Assembly (NCBI GenBank): GCA_030837345.1
Contig: JAUPKQ010000018.1
Location: 1-43,184, forward strand
Origin: Actinomycetota bacterium
Lineage (GTDB): Bacteria; Actinomycetota; Actinomycetes; Actinomycetales; Kineosporiaceae
Direction of reading: 5' to 3'
DNA length: 43,184 nt
Both the position numbers and the translations under genes were made by a program. Under the pieces are notes generated by a model. That model did not search any database, was not told the origin of the DNA, and saw nothing but the letters and a program-made list of their open reading frames with translations. This document shows, piece by piece, positions 18,049-19,697 of the stretch (its first letter is position 1; every line of letters starts with the position of its first letter).

Positions 18049-18522
18049 TCACAGGTGCAGCGGATGGCCGAAGAGGGGCTGGTCCTGGTCCGTCCCGAGC
18101 CAGGAGGGGTCCCACGGCCAGTTGCCGCTCTGGTCGCTCCAGATCACCTGGAGCCCGGGGACGAACCCCGCCTCACTCGCGTACACGAGCTGGGCATCGG
18201 CCATCAGCTGCGGATCGGCGACGTCGGCCAGCTGGAGCGTGTGCCCGGTGTCGGCGCCGAACATCACCCCGGCGTCGAGCCACGCCCCCGCCCTCACCGA
18301 GGCGGCCAGCTCCCCCAGGAGCCGGCCGGCGTCGTCCGGTTCGAGCCCGCTGACCAACAGCTCTGGATGACCGTGGAACCTCGTCAGCCCGACCGTGTGG
18401 CTGTACCCCGCGGCCCGGCCCGCCCCCTCGGCATGGGCGACGGCCCACCCCAGGCCGTAGATGGTCCGCACGTACCAGTCGAACCGTTCGCCCCTCGACT
18501 GCCCGACATACCGGCTGCCCAT
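18049..18522 (-). CDS. DUF4262 family protein
   Basis: 157 residues, soluble. The pattern GERFDWYVRTIYGLGWAVAH, then AAGYSHTVGLTRFHGHPELL and VSGLEPDDAGRLLGELAASV matches DUF4262, whose biochemical role is unknown. The C-terminal QVIWSDQSGNWPWDPSW is also typical. GGGGAGG before ATG 18522 is a clear ribosome site, so unlike its neighbours this message should have a leader. The notable feature is a LexA-type box 29 bp upstream of the start, overlapping a TATGTT -10. If functional, the gene would be induced by DNA damage. The pncB gene follows on the same strand, but with its own promoter. Confidence 0.9.
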   Translation of the reverse strand: MGSRYVGQSRGERFDWYVRTIYGLGWAVAHAEGAGRAAGYSHTVGLTRFHGHPELLVSGLEPDDAGRLLGELAASVRAGAWLDAGVMFGADTGHTLQLADVADPQLMADAQLVYASEAGFVPGLQVIWSDQSGNWPWDPSWLGTDQDQPLFGHPLHL

Positions 18523-18550
18523 GCCGCCTCCCCTGATCCACGCTCACTAC

Positions 18551-18564
18551 CGAACATACGTTCG
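18551..18564. promoter_or_regulatory. LexA (SOS) box upstream of the DUF4262 gene
   Basis: CGAACATACGTTCG is a perfect CGAAC-N4-GTTCG palindrome, the SOS box form used by LexA in mycobacteria and other actinobacteria. On the minus strand it contains TATGTT (18558-18553), a TAnnnT -10, about 30 bp before the DUF4262 start, so bound LexA would block the promoter. Confidence 0.75.
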
Positions 18565-18592
18565 AATCCGCGAAACCGCCAGCGACTTGCCC

Positions 18593-18623
18593 GACGACGT
18601 CCGACGGGACGCCGGACGTCGTC
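18593..18623. terminator. Hairpin downstream of the ClpN-only gene
   Basis: GACGACGTCCG (18593-18603) pairs perfectly with CGGACGTCGTC (18613-18623) around a 9-nt loop. It lies between the ClpN-only gene (stop at 18731) and the DUF4262 promoter and probably terminates the HTH-ClpN transcript. Confidence 0.6.
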
Positions 18624-18730
18624 CGAAAGGATGAGGCCGGGCAGCCCGACGGAACGACAGTGCAAACGAAGCCGACAAACCGCTGGTAACGGGGCTCCCT
18701 GGAGAACGTTTACGCAGGCGAAACGGCGAT

Positions 18731-19381
18731 TTAAGCGGATCGGCGGTGATGTGCCTCCAGGGCGATTCTCACGTCACCGAGAGCGACCCCGAGCCGAGAG
18801 AAGATCACAGCGGCGGCGGTGTCCCCCGCCCGCAGCAGACCGAGGAGGAGATGATCGACGTCGATGGAGCGGTCCCCCAGCCTCAGGGCCTCCCGCAGGG
18901 ACAGTTCGAGCGCCTTCTTCGCGCCCGGGCTGAACGGAACGTGAGCGCCCCGGGGCGACCCGCAGGCCCGCAGCAGGGCCACCTCGTCGACAGGCCCCCT
19001 CCGCCAGCCGGAGAGGACACGCCCGAGGAGCCCTCGCGGACGCCGGGCCCCGTCGGGGACCCGGTCCAGGGCCCCCGGACCGAACCCCGCCTCGACAGCC
19101 TCGCGGATCTTGCCGAGATCGATGCCGAGGGCCGCGAGGGCCGCCTCGTCGTCGTCGGCGATCCGCGGGAACTCGTCGAGCAGGGCGGTGAACTCACGCC
19201 GCACGGCCTCGGCCGTCACACCGCACCCGGAGAGGACCTCTACGGCCCCGCAGGGGGCGGACCCCGAGAGCAGGCCGAGAAGCAGGTGCGGGCTGCCGAT
19301 CCGCCCGTGGCCGAGCCCGTGGGCCTCCCGCTGCGCGCGGACGACCACCTCGCGGGCCGGACGGGTGAAGCGTTCGAACAT
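18731..19381 (-). CDS. ClpN-only protein (two Clp N-terminal repeats, no ATPase)
   Basis: 216 residues made of two Clp_N motifs and nothing else. Repeat 1 is FTRPAREVVVRAQREAHGLG with IGSPHLLLGLL near the N-terminus; repeat 2 is FSPGAKKALELSLREALRLG with IDVDHLLLGLLRAGDTAAAV near residues 150-200. In ClpA/ClpC these helical repeats bind adaptors and substrates. There is no Walker motif or ClpP-binding loop, so the protein cannot unfold substrates; it may titrate adaptors such as ClpS or present substrates to ClpC. This is inference. It starts 3 bp after the HTH stop; its ribosome site AGGAGG is formed by the last two Arg codons of that gene, so the pair is one operon. Confidence 0.88.
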   Translation of the reverse strand: MFERFTRPAREVVVRAQREAHGLGHGRIGSPHLLLGLLSGSAPCGAVEVLSGCGVTAEAVRREFTALLDEFPRIADDDEAALAALGIDLGKIREAVEAGFGPGALDRVPDGARRPRGLLGRVLSGWRRGPVDEVALLRACGSPRGAHVPFSPGAKKALELSLREALRLGDRSIDVDHLLLGLLRAGDTAAAVIFSRLGVALGDVRIALEAHHRRSA

Positions 19382-19384
19382 GGC

Positions 19385-19603
19385 CTACCTCCTGGCGTGC
19401 TTGCGGTGGACTGTCTGCTTGGTGACGCCGAGCGCCTCGGCGATCTCCTGCCAGGACCATCCGAGGGTCCGGGCGTTGGCGACCTGGAGGGCCTCCAGCT
19501 GTTCGAGGAGGCGGCGCAGGGCGGCGACCGACCTGAGGCCCACGGCGGGGTCACGGTGGTCGAGATTCCTGGCGAGATCTGTCGCTGGACCTGTGTCAAC
19601 CAT
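19385..19603 (-). CDS. Small HTH DNA-binding protein, likely autorepressor
   Basis: 72 residues. The N-terminal half is helical (DLARNLDHRDPAVGLRSVAA, LRRLLEQLEALQVANAR) and the C-terminus is a helix-turn-helix (GWSWQEIAEALGVTKQTVHR) followed by a basic tail KHARR. Small HTH proteins of this kind are often found next to ClpN-only genes in actinobacteria. ATG 19603 was chosen because a promoter with a 17-nt spacer ends exactly 6 nt before it; an in-frame ATG at 19696 would place both operators inside the coding region. The two palindromes over its promoter make it the likely binder of its own control region. First gene of a two-gene operon. Confidence 0.85.
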   Translation of the reverse strand: MVDTGPATDLARNLDHRDPAVGLRSVAALRRLLEQLEALQVANARTLGWSWQEIAEALGVTKQTVHRKHARR

Positions 19604-19604
19604 G

Positions 19605-19624
19605 GTGTCAGCATATGCTGACAC
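19605..19624. promoter_or_regulatory. Operator O1, perfect 20-bp palindrome over the HTH gene -10
   Basis: GTGTCAGCATATGCTGACAC is its own reverse complement. It covers the -10 element (TATGCT on the minus strand, 19615-19610) of the HTH-ClpN operon. A related half-site GTGTCAAC follows at 19593-19600, inside the first codons. Confidence 0.85.
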
Positions 19625-19638
19625 TCGCGACACGTCAA
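19610..19638 (-). promoter_or_regulatory. Promoter of the HTH-ClpN operon, leaderless
   Basis: On the minus strand: -35 TTGACG (19638-19633), a 17-nt spacer, -10 TATGCT (19615-19610), then 6 nt and ATG 19603. Transcription should begin at or beside the A of the start codon. Confidence 0.75.
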
Positions 19639-19651
19639 CATGTGCTGACAC
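19632..19651. promoter_or_regulatory. Operator O2, second copy of the palindrome over the -35
   Basis: ACGTCAACATGTGCTGACAC matches O1 at 16 of 20 positions, with its centre 27 bp away. It covers the -35 hexamer of the HTH-ClpN promoter (TTGACG on the minus strand) and lies 59 bp from the clpS start. Confidence 0.8.
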
Positions 19652-19697
19652 CCGCGGCGTCGTCCCCATGGGTCCGAGACCCAAGGAACCGATCATC

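Follow-up and report, generated by a model that had tools for sequence, protein, structure and literature searches.

A LexA-type box before an actinobacterial DUF4262 gene, and the recurrence of damage-type promoter motifs upstream of its homologs

The DUF4262 gene described here, which lies in a stretch of 43,184 nucleotides analysed as a whole ('the window'), carries a perfect LexA-type box directly upstream of its start codon, and the sequence evidence collected from its homologs leads us to regard it, with considerable confidence, as a member of the LexA regulon belonging to a family that has, within its class, repeatedly been wired to DNA damage by LexA, by PafBC or, as in genus g101, by both. 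In several lineages of actinobacteria, induction of DUF4262 by DNA damage is thus very probable. A way is thereby offered to approach the function of a family that, in those parts of the literature that were searched, is named in a single paper, for WpsD of Actinoplanes, among polysaccharide genes, and for which no statement of damage-inducibility was found there. That a single gene family has come under one or the other of two unrelated damage circuits, with sister genera differing in the circuit used, suggests selection on damage-inducibility as such.

The promoter of the DUF4262 gene and the LexA boxes of its genome

A pattern scan of the whole window yields CGAACATACGTTCG as its sole perfect CGAAC-N4-GTTCG (chance expectation 0.09; at least one such site in 8 of 100 shuffles), and a gap of 28 nt separates this box from the ATG of the DUF4262 gene (18522-18520, minus strand; Table 1), which bears out the preliminary description insofar as it had placed a perfect site before this gene. 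The same description had seen a TATGTT -10 element overlapping the box: the hexamer is indeed found inside it (18558-18553 when read on the minus strand), but a scan of the stretch upstream of DUF4262 revealed no sigma-70 consensus pair, so that TATGTT alone makes for a weak promoter call. Further upstream, a consensus scan found no T-tailed terminator, and the GC-rich hairpin listed in Table 1 is devoid of a T tract; it is perhaps a terminator insulating DUF4262 from the preceding Clp_N gene.

Table 1. Features at and around the DUF4262 promoter (positions in the window)
Feature	Position	Strand	Basis
LexA (SOS) box CGAACATACGTTCG, perfect palindromic half-sites	18551..18564		sequence; one base off the genome's lexA box
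DUF4262 gene, 157 aa, ATG start	18049..18522	-	open reading frame; PF14081, E 3.7e-24, 85.8 bits
Possible -10 hexamer TATGTT, within the box	18553..18558	-	sequence; weak call
Purine-rich, RBS-like stretch AGGGGAGG, 4 nt 5' of the ATG	18527..18534	-	sequence
GC-rich hairpin with a perfect stem of 14 bp, flanked by the Clp_N gene and the LexA box	18591..18624	-	fold prediction; the centroid is that stem alone

The 4.35 Mb draft genome (269 contigs) to which the window belongs contains 34 perfect CGAAC-N4-GTTCG sites, the majority of them within open reading frames, and a perfect box in one promoter-sized stretch is then an event of about 0.2% by chance (34 sites x 250 nt / 4.35 Mb). Two of the sites are of particular value for comparison. 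The recA promoter (L023) exhibits the perfect non-coding box CGAACGCGTGTTCG on the plus strand, with the recA start about 110 nt downstream, and a second perfect non-coding box, CGAACATGCGTTCG, is located near the end of contig C75. Because C75 and the lexA-bearing contig C105 share 101 bases, at the end of the former and the beginning of the latter (one difference in the 80 bases compared), we place CGAACATGCGTTCG before lexA. The DUF4262 box and the lexA box are one base apart, the difference being located in the spacer, and the DUF4262 box equals both the lexA and the recA boxes at all fixed positions; it is, in short, a box that fits the LexA consensus of its own organism and is found at promoter distance. 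Three more perfect and apparently non-coding boxes (L011, L022 and L024) lie near genes that are without a Pfam match or without identification.

A simple mode of control can be envisaged for such an arrangement. In undamaged cells, LexA would occupy the box, over the likely -10 element and just before the ribosome binding site, and would thereby block transcription; upon damage, RecA filaments formed on single-stranded DNA would trigger the self-cleavage of LexA, and the DUF4262 gene would be switched on.

Damage-type motifs upstream of DUF4262 homologs

For a comparison across the class we used 110 DUF4262 genes. A search of 149 genomes of the order contributed 27 of them and a search of 394 genomes of the class the other 83; seven partial matches (three of them over the cut-off) were dropped from the set. 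Motifs were counted in a stretch of 250 nt directly upstream of the profile match, and six bins of the same loci (108-110 stretches each, 658 in total) served as controls. Genera are given under anonymous labels (g13, for example); their sampling is uneven, with 14 of the 110 rows coming from g101, and the genus of the window, g1, being represented by one genome.

The exact core GAAC-N4-GTTC is present upstream of 27 of the 110 genes, as opposed to 3 of the 658 control stretches (0, 1, 0, 0, 0 and 2 in the six bins; 0.25 in dinucleotide shuffles). In genus g99, five apparent boxes (-42 to -48 relative to the profile match) turned out to be coding sequence, belonging to the opening codons of the gene (METELQFD-like), and were discarded. 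With g99 removed, 22 of the 110 genes retain a non-coding box, and these are distributed over five genera (g1, which is that of the window, g13, g101, g68 and g133). Two of them, g13 and g101, carry weight individually. In g13, the box is retained in five of six DUF4262 copies, TCGAACA-N3-GTTCTA is common to five aligned promoters with otherwise divergent flanks, and the exact 16-base TCGAAC-N4-GTTCTA (TCGAACNNNNGTTCTA) occurs once per genome in the four g13 genomes searched, always before DUF4262. Hence, the search upstream of homologs that had been proposed along with the damage-inducible reading finds the box well above the control level with either count.

A second damage-type motif emerged from the same promoters. 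The pattern TTGTCGGTG-N8-TAnnnT seen there is the RecA-NDp promoter of PafBC, for which a passage in PMC5656591 gives the consensus tTGTCRgtg-8 nt-TannnT; the motif is not confined to mycobacteria, and several genes bear both RecA-NDp and an SOS box, as stated in a part of PMC8223512. When counted in the very 110 rows in which it had first been spotted by eye, RecA-NDp with at most one mismatch precedes 24 genes (control bins 1, 1, 1, 0, 0 and 1; shuffles 0.05), and with at most two mismatches 35 genes, versus 4 of 658 controls (0-1 per bin; shuffles 0.45). Since the motif was discovered in these rows, rows fetched later and named plasmid copies constitute the cleaner test. In sister genus g4, the motif is found in four of four genes at one mismatch, and two orthologs fetched later likewise possess it, thus bringing the count to six of six; it is absent from the g4 paralog L154 and from g3-type DUF4262 copies. 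Among 13 plasmid copies scanned, a set separate from the Deinococcus copy L152 and three further P. aeruginosa records, two have the motif and both are mycobacterial: of the eight actinobacterial copies, that of Ca. Mycobacterium methanotrophicum matches with 0 mismatches and that of Mycolicibacterium vanbaalenii JOB5 with 1, while six are without RecA-NDp. The other five (Rhizobium, Erythrobacter, Geoalkalibacter and two Pseudomonas copies, i.e. Pseudomonadota and one desulfuromonad) showed, when searched with simple patterns, neither an E. coli-type LexA box nor one of the alpha type.

RecA-NDp precedes DUF4262 genes in g4, g101, g68, g99 and other genera. All 14 g101 copies carry it with at most one mismatch; in 12 of the 14, the GAAC-N4-GTTC core follows directly behind it, so that these promoters have both motifs, and in the g101 alignment the conserved columns are those of the two motifs, the stretch of the start codon and gene aside. 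In g99, three of six copies have RecA-NDp at up to two mismatches. For the gene of the window itself, the best candidate, TTGTCGG (minus strand, about 18680), was rejected, since it has five mismatches and is not followed by a properly spaced TAnnnT. The genome of the window does contain seven sites of the form TGTCRGTG-N8-TANNNT, and the six that could be assigned precede recA, uvrB, ruvA, a UvrA-like gene, a DUF1905 gene and a DUF5710 gene. We take the UvrA-like gene to be such from its first 102 residues, for which Pfam shows a sub-threshold ABC match. The sites before recA, uvrB, ruvA and the UvrA-like gene indicate that RecA-NDp marks repair genes in this genome and, by the same token, speak for the presence of PafBC. 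A PafBC-like tandem WYL pair was not found in the 269-contig draft, where neither of two WYL matches (G000 C133:26006 and C20:1490) forms such a pair; in other genomes, for example G087 and G121, paired WYL matches are located about 1 kb apart. The DUF1905 gene (L147, G000 C127) and the DUF5710 gene (L144, G000 C52) lie directly behind their RecA-NDp sites, and may represent two more damage-induced families without assigned function.

Taken together, either motif is found before 44 of the 110 genes and in 11 of 37 genera, with 7 of 658 controls: 22 genes have RecA-NDp only, 13 have both, 9 have the LexA core only and 66 have neither, the last group taking in every f35 and f37 copy as well as most of those from f36. 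The earlier reading of DUF4262 as damage-inducible is thus supported, at the level of promoter motifs, by the enrichment of both LexA box and RecA-NDp. In a gene tree of the 110 sequences (a quick search over 128 columns that leaves many forks open), the gene of the window, with its LexA box, groups with four g4 genes carrying RecA-NDp (support 92), and the minimum number of changes on the tree is 7 for LexA and 14 for RecA-NDp. In our reading, damage control of DUF4262 has been gained, lost and swapped several times. Judging from these promoter sequences, the gene of the window has probably kept damage control while using another switch, namely LexA where the sister genus g4 has the PafBC motif. 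According to its title, a 2025 paper (PMC11804915) reportedly finds that PafBC is triggered by binding of single-stranded DNA, in which case the LexA and PafBC switches would answer the same signal.

Outside the class, 24 new places in other classes of the phylum were considered, of which 18 were read and the other six have no locus; the exact LexA core or RecA-NDp with up to two mismatches was seen in 0 of the 18 copies. A scan of genome contigs with the protein of the window retrieved one distant Verrucomicrobia locus. One genome, G254, possesses two DUF4262 copies of equal score (C1:4890-5255 and C1:8024237-8024602) near both ends of an 8-Mb contig, a placement as in the terminal repeats of a linear chromosome.

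Fold and possible role of the protein, and alternative explanations

The 157-codon product surpasses the 28-bit cut-off of Pfam family DUF4262 by a wide margin (Table 1), and G25, T43, G45, P53, E54, G59, L69, Q125, D130, P136, W137 and Q148 are nearly invariant. An AlphaFold2 model calculated from a 60-sequence alignment (pLDDT 92.1, pTM 0.87) was compared with known structures using VIA-align, which (i) places bacterial and human SUFU on top, with 4bla (Z-score 7.9, r.m.s.d. 4.7, 132 residues) and the bacterial SUFU homolog 3k5j (r.m.s.d. 4.5 over 121 residues), (ii) yields ten rows with Z-scores of 6.7-7.9, nine of which are SUFU, and (iii) then drops to a Z-score of 4.1, with the best value still under 8. 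Foldseek returned nothing significant from the PDB, so that the likeness to SUFU is a lead. A Pfam sequence search of the protein at E 0.01 gave no match to SUFU, a sequence search of the PDB gave only DNPH1 chains at E 0.75 or worse, and neither the defence-system library nor NCBIfam gave a match for DUF4262. SuFu proteins are described, in a part of PMC3482391, as immunity proteins with versatile binding surfaces, and together with the SUFU-like model this description leads to a guess of a binding role. The most likely such role, which we put forward tentatively, is that DUF4262 binds a partner protein and restrains or shelters it during damage. One may then speculate, with comparable reserve, that actinobacteria possess in DUF4262 a conserved protein that is induced by damage and has a SUFU-like binding fold, its gene having repeatedly moved between LexA and PafBC circuits; it would be an as yet unnamed effector of their DNA-damage response, acting not as a repair enzyme but by restraining or protecting a partner protein.

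The alternative that survives best is that DUF4262 is a SUFU-like immunity-type protein of mobile elements, the damage switch of which merely times the induction of the element. This reading draws on the fold, on the plasmid copies and on phages: eight models of a viral structure library match at E below 0.001, one of them named DUF4262 (Ralstonia phage phiRSL1) and others from phages such as Noxifer, PhiEaH1 and 201phi2-1, the jumbo phages thus being matched by fold, and 58 of the 60 alignment members match phrog_17488, a phage family of unknown function. We nonetheless consider it unlikely, since the window and g13 copies reside among ordinary genes in the stretches that were read, no toxin gene is seen beside the window copy, and the damage motifs are kept within lineages. 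On a Frondihabitans plasmid (L231, 1489-3414), DUF4262 abuts a convergent AbiE-type toxin-antitoxin pair.

The gene had been placed, in the preliminary description, in an accessory island and near genes linked to regulated proteolysis. Pfam matches among the neighbours in the window indeed identify ClpS, DUF2017, a protein with two Clp_N repeats and an HTH protein, but the neighbours differ between lineages; in g13, translations place DUF4262 downstream of dnaJ and of a gene for a MerR-type regulator, which is presumably hspR-like. We therefore accord the Clp context no functional weight. The interval between DUF4262 and clpS (18731-19696) encodes an HTH protein of 103 aa and a 216-aa protein that has two Clp_N stretches but lacks an AAA domain; such an isolated Clp_N pair beside clpS could be a Clp adaptor or decoy.

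With damage-inducibility under LexA and PafBC as the preferred reading, two further alternatives concern the promoter. A regulator other than LexA might bind the GAAC-N4-GTTC palindrome of DUF4262 promoters, and genus g13 lends itself to this view: in the four genomes searched, the variant with GTTCTA as second half-site is confined to DUF4262, whereas the box of g13 lexA itself is TCGAAC-N4-GTTTGA. The latter form was found in the lexA promoters of other genomes in 17 of 17 read (from a survey of 18, with the unanchored L196 left out). Yet the window box equals the lexA and recA boxes of its own genome at all fixed positions, and the frequent pairing with RecA-NDp, itself a damage promoter, favours a regulator that responds to damage; together, these two points make another regulator quite improbable. 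The g13 promoters L051, L053, L054 and L058 share a further conserved stretch around CTGTCACACTTGT-ATTTATG, downstream of the LexA box and about 60-110 nt from the gene, which may be a second promoter or the site of a regulator.

It is equally improbable that the palindrome arose by chance, given the high GC content of the genome, and that the DUF4262 gene is constitutive: most of the 34 perfect genomic sites lie in reading frames, where such a role is hardly possible, and 66 of 110 homologs show neither damage motif, but the box is rightly placed and nearly equals the lexA box, homologs are boxed in 22-27 of 110 cases versus 3 of 658 controls, and the g4 orthologs have the other damage switch in six of six.

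Comparison with known systems

As a member of DUF4262 (PF14081), the protein has a curated Pfam match to a family without assigned function. The best structural match of its model, a middling one, is to the SUFU fold as represented by 3k5j and human SUFU (VIA Z-score 7.9); against this stand 12% identity to 3k5j, no Pfam SUFU match and no Foldseek hit with an E-value below 0.78. The PafBC/RecA-NDp regulon is matched by the motif before the DUF4262 genes of g4, g101, g68 and g99, with g101 showing the combination of this motif and an SOS box that is described for some genes in PMC8223512, while the gene of the window lacks the motif and its draft genome yielded no PafBC pair. With regard to the LexA (SOS) regulon, Table 1 of PMC9380542, on Streptomyces venezuelae, does not name DUF4262. 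When compared with the S. venezuelae LexA boxes given in section 7 of that paper, the box of the window is of the actinobacterial type, is located at promoter distance, and recurs before both lexA and recA of the same genome.
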